Assembly: GCF_027925305.1 (NCBI RefSeq)
Contig: NZ_BSDR01000001.1
Span: forward strand, 1,639,001 to 1,703,000
Origin: Desulforhabdus amnigena
Lineage (GTDB): Bacteria; Desulfobacterota; Syntrophobacteria; Syntrophobacterales; Syntrophobacteraceae
Length of the DNA stretch: 64,000 nucleotides
Direction of reading: 5' to 3'
Part shown: positions 6,934 through 15,996 of the stretch, in pieces
Layout: every line of letters starts with the position of its first letter
Numbering within the stretch: position 1 is the first letter of the stretch
Made by a program: the position numbers and the translations under genes
The notes under the pieces: generated by a model
What the model saw: the letters and a program-made list of their open reading frames with translations, nothing else
What the model was told of the DNA's origin: nothing
Database searches by the model: none

Positions 6934-9900
6934 TTAATATACTCTGAGTGTCCCGTAACGAGTAAGCTGCCCTGATGCAGTAGGCCAGAATTTCCACCAA
7001 GGCTTGAAGTTATCAGGGACCTTGTCCGTGTGCTGAGTGTTCTTGATTAAGTTATTGACTTTTTTCCATCCTTCCCAATCCTTAGCTGCAATGCAGCCAA
7101 TTGTTCTGCCAGGATGATGTAATCTGAAGTGGCTCCTACCAGTAGCATCGTCGACATCGTCATACGGGCTGACATCCTCCTTATCGAGTCGATAAAAGTC
7201 TAAACGGCCCTGCCGTTCAAGAATGTTATACGTTCCGTAAGGAATTGGATCACCAAAAGGTTTCCCACCAGACTCAGCTAGTATGGTCACACTGTTGCCC
7301 TTGTCCAAATCGGTAATGGATAGCTGACCAGTAGATCTGTCGTAGCTGCCCAGAACAAAGAGGCCGAGTGGATCAACCGCGTTAATTGGATCATTTTGGG
7401 CATACACATATGGGTTTATCCCCCCCGCCAATCCAATCGGATCCGGCGTCAGATATCTCCCCAATTTGGGATCGTAGTATCGGTTCCAGTTATAATGCAG
7501 CCCGGTTTCTTCATCGTAATACTGGCCGGGAAATCGCAGGTTCATGGGGAGTGTTTTGCCCTTTGGGGCCGAATGCCGATCTTCCACTCCTTCACCGAAG
7601 GGCTTGTATGCCGCGTCCCAGACCAGGTTCCCCCTCTCATCGGTTGCCTTGATGGGAGTGCCCAGGTGATCCGTGTGCACATAGAGCGCTTTTCCCTTCT
7701 CCATGACCGCAAGCAACGTGCTGTTCACGTAAATGTATTCGCGTAGCGTCCTGCCGTTTTTTGCATTCGTCTCCGCCATCAGGCGGCCTTCAAGATCATA
7801 GTGATAATGGGTGGAACCCTTGATCGTTCGCAGGCCGAAACCGTTGTAGACATAGCGGCCGGTCACTTTTCGGTTTTCCGATGCTTCGATCAGCCGGTTG
7901 TTCTCCCCGTAGGTGAAGGTCCTGTTCCCCATGGAAACGATATTGCCGTTGGCGTCGTGAGAAATGTTCAAGGGATTGGCTCCGGTGATGGAGCTCAGGC
8001 GGTTGGTCCCCGGGGTGTAGAGGTAGGCATCGGTATTTTCCCCTTCACGTTCTGTCATCCGGTTGCCCACCCTGTCATAAGCATAGCCGATGGGGCCGTA
8101 GGCCCCCTCGGTATAGGCCAGCCGCTTGAGCCCGTCGTAGCTGAAGGTCTGACTTCCACCGGGTTCCATGTGGTCGGTGATCGATTGAATGCTGCCGGCG
8201 CCGTCGTAATCGTAAGAAAAATCCAGCGTGCCGACCATATTCATCTTTCTGAGCCGGTAGCGCAGGTCGTAGTTCAATGAAAAATCGAGGCCGTTGCCAT
8301 AGGTAAGGGCCGTCATCGGGCCAAAGGGGCGGTAGGAGATGTTGTCGGCCAGTACGTTCATTTCCCGGTCCCGGCTGGTGACCATCCTCACCCTTCCCGC
8401 TTCGTCCAGATCGTAGTCGATTGTTCTGCCGCCCGGGTAGGTGAGTCCGGTGATCAGCCCCGATCCGTCGTAGCGGTATTCGGTAGTGTAAGTGACATTG
8501 CCTATGGTTTTTTCTTCGCGAATAAGATTGCCGAGGGAATCGTAGCCGAACGAATACGTTCCGCTCCCGTCCCGCATTCCCGTCATCCGTCCCCTGCCGT
8601 TCGATCCCTCGTCGTACGAATAGATCACATCGGGATCGTTGGGATAGTCGATTTTGGTGAGCCGGTCGAGAGCATCATACTCGTAGCGAACCGTGACCCC
8701 TTTGGCGTCCGTTTTTGAAACCATGTTTCCCGCCTCGTCGTAGCGATAGACGGTTTTTCCCGTGTCCGGTGAGACGGCGGTCAGCAGGTCCCTGAAATCA
8801 TCGTGATCATAGGTGGTGACATGGCCTTCCGCGTCGGTGACGCCGATGAGATTGTCATGAAGGTCGTAGTGGTATTGAGTAATGGCCGCGCCTTCGTTGA
8901 AATACTCCACGGACTTCAAAAGCCGATCGAGGCCGTCGTATTCGTAACGGGTTTCCCGCCCGTTTTCATCCGTGAGAGCTGTCGGATTTCCATTGGGATC
9001 GTAAATGAAATGCCGGAAGGTTCCGTCCGGATGCCGCAGCCGCTCCAGCCGGTTCCGCCGGTCGTATTCCATGGAGACTTTCCTGACCACAACCCCGCCG
9101 GGATCCAAAATCTCCTCCCCGACCCGGTTGCCTTCGGCATCCAACGTGAAGCGGATTCGATTTCCCAGGGGATCTTCAATTTCCTTCAGCCGGTGTGCCC
9201 CCTCATAGCGAAAAAGAAGAGTACGGCCTTCGGAGTCCCGGCTTCGGATCAGTTGCCCCACCCCATCATAGGAGTAGTGATAAGTCCGGCCGTCGATTTC
9301 TCTCGATTCGAGCCTGCCCCCGGGGGAATAAGAGTACGAGGATACGACTCCGTTTGGGTCCCTCAGCTTCAAAAGATGGCCGCAAGGGTCATAATCGAGA
9401 AACTCGGTGATCCCAGAGGGGGTTATGATCTCATGCAGCCTTCCCCTCTTGCTGCCGTAAGAGGCTTCATTGGGATAATAGGTCAGCCGGGTGATGTCCT
9501 CGACGTCGGTTCTCGGGCCGTCTATCGTGGTGATCTGTCCTCTTTCGTTGTATTCAAAAGTGCTTGTCCTGACCTGCAGCCGGCCGTTCGCATAGCCCTT
9601 CTCAGTCTTTTGGATCACGTTGCCCGCATCGTCGTAACGAAATTCCGTGACTTTGTTCTTGCCGGGAGTATCCACTCCGCTGACAGTGACCGTCAGGGGT
9701 TTTCGAAAAACACCGTGATATGTGTAGCTGGTGGTCCGCTCGACTTCACTATCCTTTGCCTCCGTTTCGGAGAGGATGTTGCCCGACTCATCGTAAGTAT
9801 AGGTGGTGTGATGCCCGCCCGCATCGCTCACGCCGACAAGCTTATGATCTTCCCCATATTGAAAGATTCCGTAAGGGCCGCAGGTGGAACAGCGCCCTCC

Positions 9901-11466
9901 ATTTTCCGAAGCTTCTTCAATGCGGGTTATATAGGCCATGCCGTCTGCGGTTTCCCGGGTGTACACGGATTTTTTGCCCAGAGCGTTCGTAACGAGGATC
10001 TTATCGCCGCCGGAGTAGTCCACATCGATGTGATTTGCCCTGCCCGGTGAGTCCACCCAAATGGCCCGGTCTTCATTGTCGTACCCGAAGGTAAGCCAGC
10101 GGCTGCCATTTTCATCCACGACTCCGGTGAGGTTGTGGCTGTCGTGTGTATCTTCATATAAATACCGTCTCACAGAGGGATTGCCCCCTGAAGGATAGCT
10201 CACGGAAATGAGATTGGGATTCGGGTCGAGAGGATCATCGTAAGTGTAGAGGTATTCTCCGCCTCCGGGGTCGGTTACTTTCCTGATTCGCACGCCGTCA
10301 TATTCGAAACGGATAGATCTGCCGAAGTCGTCCGTGACCGAAGCGAGCCTGCCCGCCTCGAATTGCATGGTGAGCTTATTGCCGGGGGCGTCTCTGATTT
10401 CTAGAAGTTTCCCGTCCAGGCCGAATGTGTAGGTGATCTGTTCGATGGTATGGAACCGAAAGAGGCCGTCCTCCCTGGTGAGGGTATTGTGAACCCCTTT
10501 TGGAGGTGTAAACGTCCCGTCTGCTTCTTCATGGAAATAGATGATCCCCCCGCCTTCCCGCCTCACTCCAACGGGATTGCCGGGAATTATCGACATGTTG
10601 AAATTGTGTGTCCAGCCGTGCCCGAGGGGGCCGCAATAGCCGGTCCGGCTGTTGTAGGTGCGTTGGAAGGTGAGATTCAGCCGGGAATGGATTCCCACGG
10701 CGACGGATGCGAAATCCGTTTCTTCCGAATAGACATTGCCTGTGGCGATATCGATGGGTTCCCCGGCGTTGTTCTGACCGCGGGGAGGCCCGTCTCCCTT
10801 CTGAGGGCCGGGGCCGATGTTCTCGTCCTGCCTACAATCCGACTCGTCTATGGCCTGATCGCAGTCGTTGTCGCGCCCGTCGCATATTTCCGGAGCTCCG
10901 GGGTAAGTGTGCGGATCGTTGTCATCGCAGTCCTCGCAGGGCGTTCTGCAGGAACCGGGTGCATAATGGCCGTCCCCGTCCGCATCCTCGCTCAGGCCTT
11001 CATCCGGTTCCTCGTTGCAATTATTGTCTCTGCCATCGCAGATTTCTTGTGCTCCGGGATGAACTCCGGGGTTTTCATCGTCGCAGTCGTTACCTTGTGG
11101 ACAGTCATCAGTCTTCTCATCATATCCGTCACCGTCTCTATCCTGGCAGGCATCCACGACGGTGATCCTCGTTCTGTCGCTGCATCTGAATTCGGAAGGT
11201 TCTTTTTTGTAGGTGGCCGTGACCCAGAATATTCCTTCCTGGAGCCCAGTGAAGGAGGCGGTGCATCCCGCGCCGTTGAGTCCCGGGGTTTGCGACCACG
11301 AGCACTCTCCCCCCGCAGGGGATGCGGCCGCCTCCAGCAGTATGGTTTCTCCCACGGGAACCGTCTTGGAACCCAAGATATCTACGGTACAGTCCCCCCA
11401 ACCAAAGAGGGTATTCGGATGAATCAAAAGGATCAAAGCAAGGCTCAGAAAAATGTTTTTTTTCAT
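6934..11466 (-). CDS. Secreted Rhs/YD-repeat protein with MopE-like metal-binding stalk and L,D-transpeptidase-like toxin domain
   Basis: 1510 residues. Order: Sec signal peptide (1-22, ends near TLFGWG); Ig-like Cys region (about 25-100); Asp/Cys-rich MopE-type metal-binding repeats (about 105-215: DGDGYDEKTDDC, DNNCNEEPDEG, DGRDNDCDQAIDE); Rhs/YD repeat shell (about 230-1340); the RHS core motif LGRYLTPDPIGLAGGINPYVYAQ and DPLGLF ending at about 1370; then a 140-residue variable C-terminus. That tail has the IPYGTY segment and an HHPGRTIGCIA motif (His 1450/1451, Cys 1458), like the DUF2778/Tlde1 L,D-transpeptidase-type toxins that attack peptidoglycan. It overlaps the TPR gene by 4 bases (ATGA). 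No type VI secretion gene is in view, and the signal peptide implies Sec export. Rhs identity is certain; the toxin activity is inferred from motifs. Confidence 0.9.
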   Translation of the reverse strand: MKKNIFLSLALILLIHPNTLFGWGDCTVDILGSKTVPVGETILLEAAASPAGGECSWSQTPGLNGAGCTASFTGLQEGIFWVTATYKKEPSEFRCSDRTRITVVDACQDRDGDGYDEKTDDCPQGNDCDDENPGVHPGAQEICDGRDNNCNEEPDEGLSEDADGDGHYAPGSCRTPCEDCDDNDPHTYPGAPEICDGRDNDCDQAIDESDCRQDENIGPGPQKGDGPPRGQNNAGEPIDIATGNVYSEETDFASVAVGIHSRLNLTFQRTYNSRTGYCGPLGHGWTHNFNMSIIPGNPVGVRREGGGIIYFHEEADGTFTPPKGVHNTLTREDGLFRFHTIEQITYTFGLDGKLLEIRDAPGNKLTMQFEAGRLASVTDDFGRSIRFEYDGVRIRKVTDPGGGEYLYTYDDPLDPNPNLISVSYPSGGNPSVRRYLYEDTHDSHNLTGVVDENGSRWLTFGYDNEDRAIWVDSPGRANHIDVDYSGGDKILVTNALGKKSVYTRETADGMAYITRIEEASENGGRCSTCGPYGIFQYGEDHKLVGVSDAGGHHTTYTYDESGNILSETEAKDSEVERTTSYTYHGVFRKPLTVTVSGVDTPGKNKVTEFRYDDAGNVIQKTEKGYANGRLQVRTSTFEYNERGQITTIDGPRTDVEDITRLTYYPNEASYGSKRGRLHEIITPSGITEFLDYDPCGHLLKLRDPNGVVSSYSYSPGGRLESREIDGRTYHYSYDGVGQLIRSRDSEGRTLLFRYEGAHRLKEIEDPLGNRIRFTLDAEGNRVGEEILDPGGVVVRKVSMEYDRRNRLERLRHPDGTFRHFIYDPNGNPTALTDENGRETRYEYDGLDRLLKSVEYFNEGAAITQYHYDLHDNLIGVTDAEGHVTTYDHDDFRDLLTAVSPDTGKTVYRYDEAGNMVSKTDAKGVTVRYEYDALDRLTKIDYPNDPDVIYSYDEGSNGRGRMTGMRDGSGTYSFGYDSLGNLIREEKTIGNVTYTTEYRYDGSGLITGLTYPGGRTIDYDLDEAGRVRMVTSRDREMNVLADNISYRPFGPMTALTYGNGLDFSLNYDLRYRLRKMNMVGTLDFSYDYDGAGSIQSITDHMEPGGSQTFSYDGLKRLAYTEGAYGPIGYAYDRVGNRMTEREGENTDAYLYTPGTNRLSSITGANPLNISHDANGNIVSMGNRTFTYGENNRLIEASENRKVTGRYVYNGFGLRTIKGSTHYHYDLEGRLMAETNAKNGRTLREYIYVNSTLLAVMEKGKALYVHTDHLGTPIKATDERGNLVWDAAYKPFGEGVEDRHSAPKGKTLPMNLRFPGQYYDEETGLHYNWNRYYDPKLGRYLTPDPIGLAGGINPYVYAQNDPINAVDPLGLFVLGSYDRSTGQLSITDLDKGNSVTILAESGGKPFGDPIPYGTYNILERQGRLDFYRLDKEDVSPYDDVDDATGRSHFRLHHPGRTIGCIAAKDWEGWKKVNNLIKNTQHTDKVPDNFKPWWKFWPTASGQLTRYGTLRVY

Positions 11467-12845
11467 CTGGGATCGGCCAGTCTTTTTTCCGTCGCCTCTT
11501 TCCAGAATTGAGATTGCACCTTTGCAAAGACTTCACTCGCCTTTTTCATATTTCCCATCTTTTCATATACCAGGCTGAGTTCAGAGAGGGCGTAATCCGT
11601 GTCCTTGTTTTTCGGGTAGAGTCGCAGGAAATTTTCAAGCATTACCGCAGCATCATGATACTGCTCATTTTCCTTGTAGATCTTGGCAAGCCAGAGATAC
11701 GCCTGCGATTTCATGTATCTCATGCTCTTGCCTGCGTCGCTTTCGTCACCCTGTTCATTGAAATCGTTGAGCATTGCCTGTGCAGCATTCTCTGCGATTG
11801 TGTACTGCTCGAGTTCATGAGCCGTCCTGGTGATTTCGAGGTAGGCCTTGAGGGCTTCCTCTGATTGGGGCTGGTTGTCTATGACCTGCATCGCAGCGGC
11901 ATGCCCCGTATGGAACACGGCTTCGGCCATCTGATCCATTCCCTTGAATTTCAGATCTCTGGCGAGATCCAGTTGACTGCGGTAATCGGAAACGCCGTTC
12001 ACCCAGTCGGCGGCCTGTTTCATGAATTCCTTGGACAGCGTTTTGTCTTTCTGCGAAACATAACAGTCCACTATCCTCTGGCAGGCCTTTTGAACAAAGT
12101 AGGTGTTTTTCGGATATCTCTTAATATACATCCCATAGTAGTTGATAGCCCCGGAGTAATCCCTGGCCCTCTGAGCCTCTTTTGCCAGAACGAAAAGAGC
12201 GCGTTGGGAGGAAGTCGAATCTGGGTGATCCTGCACGATGCCTTTGAGGATCTTGAAAGATTCCTCTCTGTCGCCGTATTTGAGGTGGAGCATGGCGTAT
12301 CTGTAGATATCCCTGTCGTCAAAATCGCTTACGGGCAGGCAGGCCATGCGGCTGAGAAGATCTGTTGCGGCGCTGGGGTTCTTTTTGTCCGTGTAGTATT
12401 TCAGGAGGCGGCCGTACGTTCTCAGTACGGCCTTGGTTTGAAGGGACGAGTAGGGAGCATCGATGATTTTCCATTGGATTTTGAGCGCTTCACCGGTTTC
12501 CCCATACCTGGAATAGATGAGGGAGAGCTTTTCCTGGTCTTTCAATTCAAGAGATTCTTCCCGACAATTTGCCCTCAAATGGGTCAGCACCTCTTTTATC
12601 TTCGGAGCTTCCTTTCTCATTGCGTGGATCTTGAGCATCCGGTCATAAACCTTCAAAACGGATTTTGTCTGGTTTGGATCATTGGAAGACCTTTTCAACA
12701 TTTCTCCGTAGATCTGCAGGGCCCGGTCAAAATCACCGGATTTTTCAGCCTGTCGGGCTTCATCTAATGGATGCGCTTGAGCAGAGGAAAAGCCTGAAAA
12801 AATGAGAACAAACAGGATAAAAAACAAAGTGATTTTCACCTGCAT
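11463..12845 (-). CDS. Secreted tetratricopeptide-repeat protein
   Basis: 460 residues: signal peptide (cleavage near SSAQA-HPLDEA), then TPR-like helical pairs across the length (ARQAEKSGDFDRALQIYGEML, YSGAINYYGMYIKRYPKN, YHDAAVMLENFLRLYPKN, DYALSELSLVYEKMGNMKKASEV). Such proteins are periplasmic or outer-membrane scaffolds. The ATG at 12845 shares one base with the TGA of the upstream nucleosidase gene and lies 6 bases after AAGGAG; a GTG at 12848 is the alternative. Its end overlaps the rhs start by 4 bases. The coupling suggests a role in handling the Rhs protein or bridging it to the nucleosidase; this is inference. Confidence 0.8.
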   Translation of the reverse strand: MQVKITLFFILFVLIFSGFSSAQAHPLDEARQAEKSGDFDRALQIYGEMLKRSSNDPNQTKSVLKVYDRMLKIHAMRKEAPKIKEVLTHLRANCREESLELKDQEKLSLIYSRYGETGEALKIQWKIIDAPYSSLQTKAVLRTYGRLLKYYTDKKNPSAATDLLSRMACLPVSDFDDRDIYRYAMLHLKYGDREESFKILKGIVQDHPDSTSSQRALFVLAKEAQRARDYSGAINYYGMYIKRYPKNTYFVQKACQRIVDCYVSQKDKTLSKEFMKQAADWVNGVSDYRSQLDLARDLKFKGMDQMAEAVFHTGHAAAMQVIDNQPQSEEALKAYLEITRTAHELEQYTIAENAAQAMLNDFNEQGDESDAGKSMRYMKSQAYLWLAKIYKENEQYHDAAVMLENFLRLYPKNKDTDYALSELSLVYEKMGNMKKASEVFAKVQSQFWKEATEKRLADPR

Positions 12846-13603
12846 CACCGGCTCCTTCGGGGAAGGTTTGAATGCCCAAGGAATTCCTTTAAAACTTCAA
12901 CACTCTTGTAGTTTACACTTTGAGCCGACCGATCGAAGTGGTCCCGCGCATCGCTGCCGGCCTTGTCGGAAATGATCCTGATGAAGAGGCATGGAATGCC
13001 ATTTTGTATGCATACTTCTTGAATTGCGGCAGCGCCCATGTCCACTGCCGATGCACTGAATTTCTTTCTCAGCCAATCCCTCTTTTCCTTCGCTGCAACG
13101 AATCGATCGCCGGTCAAAATCGTACCGTAGGCGTATCCCCTGGAAGATGCCCAGCCCCCGGCTTCGGCTTCCGCAGGCTTTCCCAGTGTCGGTGGGAGTT
13201 CCCATACGTCCCCATAGGGCTTGGTGACTCCGAAATCATGCTGAAGGGTCCTTTCTGAGACGACCACGCTTCCAACTTCAAGGGATGGATCGATTGCGCC
13301 TGCAAAACCAATGGATACGATCCTATCCACATGGAACCGGCTCGCCAGAAGCTGCGCTGTGATGGCATTGTTCACCTTTCCCATGGGAGAGCGTACCAGG
13401 ACGACTCTCTTGCCCTCCATAATCCCCCTGTAGAAATCCCTTTCAGCCTCATGGAATCTTTGTTCTGTTTTCATGTGGCCCAGGGCTTCCTGCAGTTCTC
13501 CCTGAAGGGTGCAGATCAGGCCTATGTCCGCGGAGGCGAGGCGTGGCACCCATAAAGTTAAAATGATCGCGAAGATGACAGCGGAGGATCTCAAGCCGGC
13601 CAT
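12845..13603 (-). CDS. Exported MTA/SAH nucleosidase-like protein (PNP/UDP phosphorylase superfamily)
   Basis: 252 residues: a clear Sec signal peptide (1-25, ends ASA), then a nucleosidase fold that starts where cytosolic MTAN enzymes start (IGLICTLQGELQEAL). Superfamily landmarks are PMGKVNNAITAQLL, VSIGFAGAIDPSLEVGSVVVS, GTILTGDRFV and IRIISDKAGSDARDHF. Aligned by eye with E. coli MTAN, the Glu12 and Asp197 equivalents are present, but the ribose-binding Glu174 (VEME) is Gly here (VDMG), so specificity or activity may differ. Its start overlaps the reverse transcriptase stop by 13 bases. Export is unusual for this family. The natural substrate cannot be told. Confidence 0.8.
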   Translation of the reverse strand: MAGLRSSAVIFAIILTLWVPRLASADIGLICTLQGELQEALGHMKTEQRFHEAERDFYRGIMEGKRVVLVRSPMGKVNNAITAQLLASRFHVDRIVSIGFAGAIDPSLEVGSVVVSERTLQHDFGVTKPYGDVWELPPTLGKPAEAEAGGWASSRGYAYGTILTGDRFVAAKEKRDWLRKKFSASAVDMGAAAIQEVCIQNGIPCLFIRIISDKAGSDARDHFDRSAQSVNYKSVEVLKEFLGHSNLPRRSR

Positions 13604-14766
13604 GAAATCCGCTCGAAACCGCTGAGAAGTTTATTCCCTTTTTCCCTGTTCACCATTCTTACAAAACTTATCCTGCCCCGAAGCGAGTTCTTGAATCGAT
13701 CGAGTTCCGATACCCCCCATCTTTTCATCTGTTCCTGGATGTCTCCATTCAAGCAATTGTGAATAACGGCCCGGAGGCGTTTGTATTCGTCTCTTTGCGT
13801 ATTTATCTTCCTGTTCACAACTACGCCGGTCAGCTTTTGCCGTCCTCCCTTTCTGGCAATGGCCACCTTTTTCTCGTTCACCTCGAATCCTTCGTCTTCG
13901 ATGATGTGCCTGAAAAATGGAATCCATCTGTTGAAGGTCGGGTCATTGGAAGAAAAGGCGAGGTCGTCGGCATATCTCGAATAATGGAAATCCATCTTTT
14001 GGGCGAGGCCGGCAAACCTTCTATCCATTCTTGAACTCACGATATTCGACAGGTAAGGGCTCGTAGGTGCGCCCATGGGCAGTCGCCCTTTGTAGGTCGA
14101 TAGTTCCGTCAATGCCTCAGCCGTCCCTTCAGGGTAACCAAGGTCCAGATACACCCCTTTCACCCTGGCAAATGTTATGGAAGGGAAAAAATCCTTGATA
14201 TCCATTTTGATGATTATCTCTTGTCCCACATGGTTTTGGGCGTTGCTCACGATGGATCTTCCCCTTCGAAAACCATTTGCACAAGGGTGAACGAAGACCT
14301 TTTCAAGGATCTCGGTGAGTATCCCTTTTTGTATTGCCTTCAATTCGGCTTTGGGAGCGCAAATATGCCTTTTGCCGCCATGGCTTTTGGGTATGTAGAA
14401 CGAGTGGTAATAGCTTTCCTTGTTTTGAATGAGGCGGAGCAGGTTTTCCTTGTCGAGATCCAGGAACCGGGCCAGGTGCGCGATGTTGAATATGAAGGGA
14501 AGGTTCCGATCTAGCATCATTTCCGCGTAGGAAACCAGGAAGGAGAGGCTTCTCGGATCGATATGCCGATTTTGGGAGATGAATTTCCTGATGGCGGCCT
14601 TGTTTGTCGAAAGGGTGAGACTGTCGCTGTAAAATTCTATCTCTTTTGAGCGCTTGAGACACAACCGGGTGTAAGCGCCAAGGAGGTCGATCAGTTCAGG
14701 GGCAGTGCCGGCCCGTTGGTTGATCTCGACCAGGTTTGAAACGAATTCTTCATGGGAACATTCCAC
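13591..14766 (-). CDS. Retron-type reverse transcriptase
   Basis: 391 residues. Palm motifs are ordered: MDIKDFFPSI (188-197), LPMGAPTSPYLSN (about 229-241), catalytic YADD (265-268), and LTG (312-314) where retron enzymes carry VTG. NAQNH at 175-179 matches the retron NAxxH motif of region X. There is no maturase or HNH domain (against a group II intron) and no SQ-type motif 4 (against a diversity-generating retroelement). The GTG start at 14766 follows GGAGG by 7 bases. A structured RNA with retron architecture lies immediately upstream (14793-15034). It would convert part of that RNA into msDNA. The gene leads an overlapping series with nucleosidase, TPR and Rhs genes. Confidence 0.92.
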   Translation of the reverse strand: MECSHEEFVSNLVEINQRAGTAPELIDLLGAYTRLCLKRSKEIEFYSDSLTLSTNKAAIRKFISQNRHIDPRSLSFLVSYAEMMLDRNLPFIFNIAHLARFLDLDKENLLRLIQNKESYYHSFYIPKSHGGKRHICAPKAELKAIQKGILTEILEKVFVHPCANGFRRGRSIVSNAQNHVGQEIIIKMDIKDFFPSITFARVKGVYLDLGYPEGTAEALTELSTYKGRLPMGAPTSPYLSNIVSSRMDRRFAGLAQKMDFHYSRYADDLAFSSNDPTFNRWIPFFRHIIEDEGFEVNEKKVAIARKGGRQKLTGVVVNRKINTQRDEYKRLRAVIHNCLNGDIQEQMKRWGVSELDRFKNSLRGRISFVRMVNREKGNKLLSGFERISWPA

Positions 14767-14792
14767 TGCCCGGCCTCCAATTCTTATAGTAT

Positions 14793-15034
14793 GTCATTGT
14801 TTTTAAAATGGATGAGATCGGTTTCTGTTTGAGGCTTTCCCGAATAAAACCCGGAACCCAGGAACGCTTTTCACGGGGATGCCGTTTCCGATGACTCGAC
14901 AAGGTCACATTTGGCATAATGGATTTTGCTTGAAGACCGTTCCCTGAACGTTTGATGATCATTGACGTGCAAAATCAGCGGATTGGCCTGAAATGCGACG
15001 CGGTCGGTATTTTCAGCTTTTTACGAACAATGAC
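14793..15034 (-). ncRNA. Predicted retron msr-msd RNA
   Basis: On the minus strand a1, GTCATTGTTCGTAAAA (15034-15019), pairs with a2, TTTTAAAAACAATGAC (14808-14793): 9 bp, a 2-base internal loop, then 5 bp. AGC (15018-15016) follows a1 at once, as in known retrons where its G is the branching residue. Downstream are candidate msr hairpins (CGAC-CGC-GTCG near 15006-14996, CGTTC-AGG-GAACG near 14950-14938) and a longer msd-like stem (ATGCC...GGCAT with GTGAC...GTCAT). a2 ends 26 bases before the reverse transcriptase start. No clear promoter was found upstream. The limits are predicted from pairing only. Confidence 0.7.
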
Positions 15035-15096
15035 TCTTCGCTCCAGCTTCAGTGGGAGGAGAGGTCCAGGGATCCTTCTTACCGGAATCACCCGTT

Positions 15097-15159
15097 GCCG
15101 ACCGCGATCACGCGGTCGGCCTGATTGTTTCAAATTGCGCGGATAGCGTAACACTATCC
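15097..15159. other. Two strong hairpins between the retron RNA and the upstream gene
   Basis: A perfect 10-bp stem with an ATCA loop (GCCGACCGCG / CGCGGTCGGC, 15097-15120) and a 6-bp stem (GGATAG / CTATCC, 15141-15159). There is no T-run, so neither is a classic intrinsic terminator. The strand CGCGGTCGG recurs at 15000-15008 inside the predicted msr, so an alternative pairing with the retron RNA is possible. Otherwise 15035-15187 holds no gene. Confidence 0.55.
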
Positions 15160-15187
15160 CAGCCTGAGGCTGTCTAAGAAGGATGCC

Positions 15188-15463
15188 CTAGAAAATGAGG
15201 CTCTCCAAAGCCAAAAAAGGTTTATCCGTTTTGATCGTAAACTCGGGATTGGGAAACGGTATTTGAAGACAGCGAAATCCCTCTGTACAGTCGCGGCAAC
15301 CCATCTCCTCCGTCATTCCGTATCCACAGCTGGAACATCCAGCCGGAAGAAGGCTCAGCGATTTGCACCTCGGGCAGGTCGAACTTCCACTGGACGGCAT
15401 GACGGGAAGCAGCACGCCTGCAATGACAGCCCCGGAAACCTTTATGAAAGTTCTTCGTCTCAA
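15188..15463 (-). CDS. Small protein with twin-arginine-like leader and Cys-pair zinc ribbon
   Basis: 91 residues starting with TTG. The N-terminus MRRRTFIKVSGAVIAGVLLP looks like a Tat or lipoprotein-like export leader. The mature part has CPRC, CSSC and CRDC pairs, fit for one or two metal sites, and a hydrophilic tail. No family is recognised. The ribosome-binding site is weak and the start is uncertain. It stands just upstream of the retron RNA, in the same direction, and could be part of the accessory cassette. Confidence 0.45.
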   Translation of the reverse strand: MRRRTFIKVSGAVIAGVLLPVMPSSGSSTCPRCKSLSLLPAGCSSCGYGMTEEMGCRDCTEGFRCLQIPFPNPEFTIKTDKPFLALESLIF

Positions 15464-15765: not shown

Positions 15766-15988
15766 CCAACAGGATTACCGGAAATTATCGACATGTCGAA
15801 ATTGTGTGTCCAGCCGTAGCCGAGGGGGGCCGCAGTAATCGATCCGGCTGTTGTAGGTGCGCTGGAAGGTGAGATTCAGCCGGGAATGGATTCCCAAGGC
15901 GATGGATGCGAAATCCGTTTCTTCCGAATAGACATTGTCTGTGGCGATATCGATGGGTTCCCCAACGTTTTTCTGACCGCGTAGGGGC
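15766..15988 (-). pseudogene. Remnant of an rhs gene
   Basis: About 223 bases closely match 10567-10792 of the intact rhs gene, the part coding for the start of the YD shell (YSEETDFASVAVGIHSRLNLTFQRTYNSRTGYCG region). Small indels break the frame, and neither start nor toxin end is present. It lies between the retron-upstream gene and the border motif at 15997. It shows that rhs sequence has been duplicated and lost here. Confidence 0.85.
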
Positions 15989-15996
15989 CCACTTTT

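Follow-up and report, generated by a model that had tools for sequence, protein, structure and literature searches.

A Candidate Retron msr-msd RNA Adjoining a Reverse Transcriptase in an Operon of Exported Proteins of Desulforhabdus amnigena

Retrons are understood as cytoplasmic defense units in which a complex of reverse transcriptase (RT) and msDNA restrains a toxin. A minus-strand RT gene in the 64,000-nucleotide stretch of Desulforhabdus amnigena DNA analyzed here (the window) raises the question of which neighboring RNA such an enzyme would copy. The original prediction, made from the letters of the DNA, placed an msr-msd RNA at 14793–15034, close to the start of the RT.

13591–14766, minus strand: retron RT, 391 amino acids, with NAQNH, YADD, and LTG motifs, recognized through NF038233, PADLOC, and the Ec86 RT structure

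Judged by its sequence relationships, this gene encodes a true retron RT. Residues 97–381 match the NCBIfam model NF038233 (retron_St85_RT) at 247.1 bits against a cutoff of 235, the motifs are of the NAxxH, YADD, and VTG types, and the nearest solved structure is the retron Ec86 RT (1.2e-47), with retron RTs as the top solved relatives. The highest-ranking PADLOC models are RT_III-A (3e-105) and RT_XIII (1e-104), and the type XIII model is the best for the relatives. Genome searches yielded 13 further loci of this RT family, and an N-terminal extension of ~85 amino acids is common to the close relatives. In a tree from which a motif filter had dropped some members, the RTs of the operons group as one clade (support 98/97), with the window sequence branching first. 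Viral and plasmid collections returned distant retron RTs alone. Locus L087 (G784b, 7310–8511) is a second retron copy in its genome, with an RT split over two overlapping frames and an intact RNA beside it.

Two Inverted Repeats Upstream of the Reverse Transcriptase

The repeat first proposed as the a1/a2 stem is present as described. Its minus-strand arms, GTCATTGTTCGTAAAA (15034–15019) and TTTTAAAAACAATGAC (14808–14793), pair at 14 of 16 positions, every pair being Watson–Crick; AGC follows the first arm directly, and the second arm lies 26 nt from the RT, which starts with GTG at 14766. A repeat of this kind is weakly above chance. When the 421-nt intergenic region is dinucleotide-shuffled, arms pairing at 14 of 16 positions around a loop of 60–400 nt arise in 1.35% of the shuffles; an equally good repeat occurs in 8 of 318 real 421-nt stretches, with AGC beside an arm in 0 of these 8.

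Further evidence argues against an msr-msd at 14793–15034. The fold of this 242-nt stretch is no better than those of its shuffles (z = −0.75), the repeat is absent in all 12 relatives that carry the conserved RNA described below, and the covariance model of that RNA (R1) finds nothing above 3 bits here with filters off. The stretch is also without the TTAG...GTAA junction, and the conserved candidate adjoins it. It is therefore highly improbable, despite the well-paired arms, the AGC beside a1, and the short distance to the RT, that 14793–15034 is used as an RT template, whether as the msr-msd or as a second one.

A different origin of the repeat may be considered from the DNA that surrounds it.

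14767–15068, minus strand: spacer of 302 nt from a2 to the RT, locus-specific, containing the repeat at 14793–15034

The gap between a2 and the RT is ~15–80 nt in relatives, none of which has the 302-nt spacer, and the repeat bounds 242 nt of this spacer. The arms could on these grounds be the terminal inverted repeats of a small MITE-like mobile insertion between a2 and the RT, a proposal about the origin of the spacer that is compatible with our preferred explanation. However, the 4.54-Mb genome holds no second copy of the segment and there is no obvious target-site duplication, and we consider this origin unlikely.

The same intergenic region contains another inverted repeat, whose arms lie nearer to each other (15069–15081 and 15175–15187), and this is the conserved one. 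When the upstream regions of RT homologues were compared, as had been suggested with the original prediction, the arms of the first repeat were absent, and compensatory changes were found instead in the RNA corresponding to 15069–15188. A search with the Rfam families found nothing in the window at the gathering score, nor at E up to 5 in 14700–15250. What stands of the earlier reading is a retron RT and, between it and the upstream gene, an msr-msd-like RNA that has an a1/a2 stem as well as a candidate branch G; the proposed position does not stand, as the RNA lies at 15069–15188, ~35 bases further upstream. The corrected coordinates matter in practice, since a clone of 14793–15034 would be a test of the wrong RNA.

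A hairpin at 15097–15120 had also been read as an upstream regulatory element, one strand of which could pair with 15000–15008 in a switch between the upstream RNA and the msr. The 9-base match is real, with a chance probability of ~0.025. The switch is without comparative support, because its second partner, 15000–15008, is missing in relatives, and we rejected it. In the conserved RNA, this hairpin corresponds to the msd stem itself.

The Conserved RNA and Its Likeness to Ec86

The segment at 15069–15188 is very probably the msr-msd of a retron of apparently undescribed type, a judgment that covers the identity and the place of the RNA. Its features, all on the minus strand, are as follows.

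15069–15188, minus strand: retron-type msr-msd noncoding RNA, 120 nt; sole R1 match in 64 kb, z = −7.35, position as in 12 relatives
15175–15188, minus strand: a1 arm GGGCATCCTTCTTA, beginning where the TAG stop of the upstream gene ends; 13 bp with a2, with one bulged base
15174, minus strand: predicted branch G (TTA-G-A), immediately past the a1/a2 duplex
15141–15159, minus strand: msr hairpin GGATAGTGTTACGCTATCC with a GTTAC loop; relatives conserve both loop and stem and show compensatory changes
15097–15120, minus strand: msd hairpin GCCGACCGCG-TGAT-CGCGGTCGGC, the "strong hairpin" of the original prediction; in six relatives, both sides change in 7 of the 9 stem pairs
15069–15081, minus strand: a2 arm TAAGAAGGATCCC, pairing with a1; by analogy with Ec86, copying would start opposite base 15083

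This segment is a structured noncoding RNA that adjoins the RT and is closed by a1/a2, directly preceded by the stop codon of the upstream gene. Its fold reaches −61.1 kcal/mol, and the minimum-energy structure includes the closing stem, the GTTAC hairpin, and the msd hairpin. The msd hairpin has no copies elsewhere in the genome at up to 3 mismatches.

In 12 of the 13 further loci, an RNA of 124–136 nt comes directly after the stop codon that ends a small upstream gene. These RNAs share one order: a long closing stem leads into TTAG; next come a hairpin whose loop is GTTAC, GCTAC, or GGTAC, then a small and a variable one, and finally GTA ahead of the second closing arm, after which the RT begins. 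The exception, in genome G286, has no recognizable RNA and no twin-arginine gene upstream. At this locus (L072), a different inverted repeat, GCTCACAGG...CCTGTGAGC around ~100 nt, lies upstream of the RT at ~5308 and is perhaps a diverged or replaced msr-msd; the operon of nucleosidase, TPR, and Ig-like genes is present there.

Covariation was scored for the named structure in a MAFFT alignment, made from sequence alone, of six relatives with the window left out, which was also the source of R1. In this alignment, 96.0% of cells pair, and 15 pairs and 34 cells have changed on both sides, values that 0 of 500 shuffles reach; sliding the partners by 1–3 columns lowers pairing to 30–38%. Single-sequence folds give z scores of −5.2 to −7.9. 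All six relatives found after R1 was built match it (E 1e-20 to 1e-30), and 40 other loci, most of them with other retron-like RTs, do not.

Built with the window left out, R1 finds one match in 64 kb, spanning 15069–15188 on the minus strand from one end of the model to the other at 17.4 bits (E 0.033); on a 551-base intergenic stretch with filters off, the same segment is found at E 2.9e-4. By itself this held-out match is moderate, because the window RNA is the most divergent member of the family, at 17 bits compared with >90 for the others. A search of the whole D. amnigena genome with R1 at E up to 1, in which some first-look candidates went unscored, returned nothing, a 17.4-bit match being too weak at the 4.5-Mb scale.

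Could the conserved structure regulate the operon in cis, as an attenuator or ligand sensor, and not be copied by the RT? Its leader position between two operon genes would suit such a role, as would the T run that follows a2 in several relatives and resembles an intrinsic terminator, although no T run follows a2 in the window. A retron RT adjoins this RNA, however, and both the closing stem and the branch junction of the RNA match those of Ec86. In addition, the long simple hairpin changes fast while keeping its pairing, as would be expected of an msd and unlike a ligand sensor. Taken together, these points make a purely regulatory structure quite improbable, and we return to 15069–15188 as a putative msr-msd.

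The comparison with Ec86 (Eco1, type II-A) bears on how this RNA might be copied. The Ec86 locus of E. coli reads CACCCTTAG...CGTAAGGGTG, and its counterpart in the window reads ATCCTTCTTAG...GGTAAGAAGGAT. In both, a1 ends in TTA-G and G-TAA precedes a2 (TTAGC...GTAAGG in Ec86), the msr hairpins are followed by an msd hairpin with the RT downstream, and the upstream gene runs into or up to a1. TTAG and GTA are found at the junction in 13 of 13 family members, with AGC in two of them. The window system differs from Ec86 in its shorter RNA (120 nt versus ~170 nt in Ec86), its short msd stem (9–10 bp), its operon of five to six genes, and its partners, which are exported and have other folds.

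From a position conserved in 13 of 13 members and shared with Ec86, we infer that G15174 is the branch site. The RT would prime from the 2′-OH of this G and copy the RNA starting near base 15083 and continuing through the hairpin at 15097–15120. The predicted product would be a short branched RT-DNA of ~40–50 nt containing the hairpin.

Variability of the Putative msd Hairpin

Four closely related loci allow the hairpin to be compared with its surroundings. Among L001, L002, L079/L088 (G954), and L078/L089 (G956), the RT genes are 95–98% identical in DNA, the 5′ part of the RNA 99–100%, and the neighboring genes 94–98%. The 24-nt msd hairpins of the same four loci are 42–79% identical, and all four still pair. 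Between L001 and G956, 14 of 24 hairpin positions differ compared with none of the 118 positions of flanking RNA; if divergence were 5%, 14 differences in 24 positions would have a probability of ~7e-13. This hypervariability was measured in this family alone, as the E. coli Ec86 copies are either >99% or <80% identical and thus unusable as a control for msd variability. The two copies in G784 (L081 and L083) also have RNA differences mainly in the msd hairpin.

We tentatively suggest that the msd hairpin is replaced or diversified much faster than the locus around it while its pairing is kept. The DNA hairpin might then serve less as a fixed scaffold than as a recognition or identity element that changes, in a retron family that acts at the envelope, with a cytoplasmic RT/msDNA tied to conserved exported proteins. 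The hairpin series provides a natural set for asking what purpose the sequence of the RT-DNA serves.

Exported Partners and Type Assignment

In relatives, the operon runs from a twin-arginine Cys-rich protein through the RNA, the RT, a nucleosidase, a TPR protein, and an Ig-like protein to a further exported protein. The corresponding protein genes of the window, besides the RT, are listed below.

15188–15463, minus strand: small twin-arginine-signal protein, 91 amino acids, zinc-ribbon-like with invariant Cys, encoded where the effector lies in Ec86
12845–13603, minus strand: PNP/MTAN-family nucleosidase with a signal peptide, 252 amino acids (PF01048, 1.7e-39); its start overlaps the RT stop
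11463–12848, minus strand: TPR protein with a signal peptide, from domain and signal-peptide matches
6934–11466, minus strand: exported protein whose N-terminus carries the Ig-like domain of the operon family, joined to MopE repeats and RHS repeats, with a Tlde1-like C-terminus, from domain matches

The small upstream proteins have RRxF and five Cys residues invariant in 8 of 8 sequences; the window protein matches the Pfam TAT_signal model at 5.7e-4 (20.2 bits, under the cutoff of 22.7). Because the upstream gene reaches a1 as it does in Ec86, the twin-arginine gene occupies the position of the Ec86 effector. The upstream effector of Ec86 is NDT-like, whereas a twin-arginine Cys-rich protein of 91–136 amino acids that has no PADLOC match is found here.

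The Ec86 effector acts on N-glycosidic bonds, as does the class of nucleosidase found here. The start of the nucleosidase is hydrophobic and signal-peptide-like in 13 of 13 cases. Like MTA/SAH nucleosidase (MTAN), these proteins belong to the PF01048 family and keep the D197 equivalent. They differ from it in the signal peptide present in all of them, in the E174 equivalent, which is Gly or Ser in all sequences compared, and in the E12 equivalent, which is lost in relatives and kept in the window. We take the roles of these residues to be those of their equivalents in E. coli MTAN. The substrate of these exported enzymes, in which the E174 equivalent is lost and the D197 equivalent kept, probably differs from that of MTAN.

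The TPR and Ig-like proteins start with signal peptides, except where predicted starts are misplaced or genes are cut. The counterpart of 6934–11466 in relatives is an Ig-like protein of ~550 amino acids without RHS repeats. Separately, a stretch ~200 nt long at 15770–15990, upstream of the operon, resembles ~10600–10750 in the DUF6531-coding part of the RHS gene and is perhaps the remnant of another RHS copy next to the operon.

The RT models of types III-A and XIII score best in PADLOC, and the partners were compared with those of both types. Type III partners as described are a PRTase and a DNA-binding protein (PMC12548924). Neither is found in this operon, which has the twin-arginine Cys-rich, exported nucleosidase, TPR, and Ig-like/RHS proteins instead. 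For type XIII, compared through the PADLOC models, 0 partners match PADLOC retron partners at E 0.001. Against all PADLOC defense families at the same E value, the partners gave no match except that of the window nucleosidase to a PN-superfamily effector. These partners occur in no PADLOC retron type, and the family is apparently undescribed. In the literature searched, there were no retrons with exported partners and none with a nucleosidase of this family.

These partners suggest how the system might act. A cytoplasmic RT/msDNA complex would gate an envelope module made up of the exported nucleosidase, the TPR protein, and the Ig-like/RHS and twin-arginine proteins. We give somewhat less than even credence to such gating, which would most likely serve in anti-phage or anti-competitor defense. 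A clade in which all the conserved partners carry export signals does not fit the picture of toxin restraint in the cytoplasm, and would need another coupling between the RT-DNA and its effectors.
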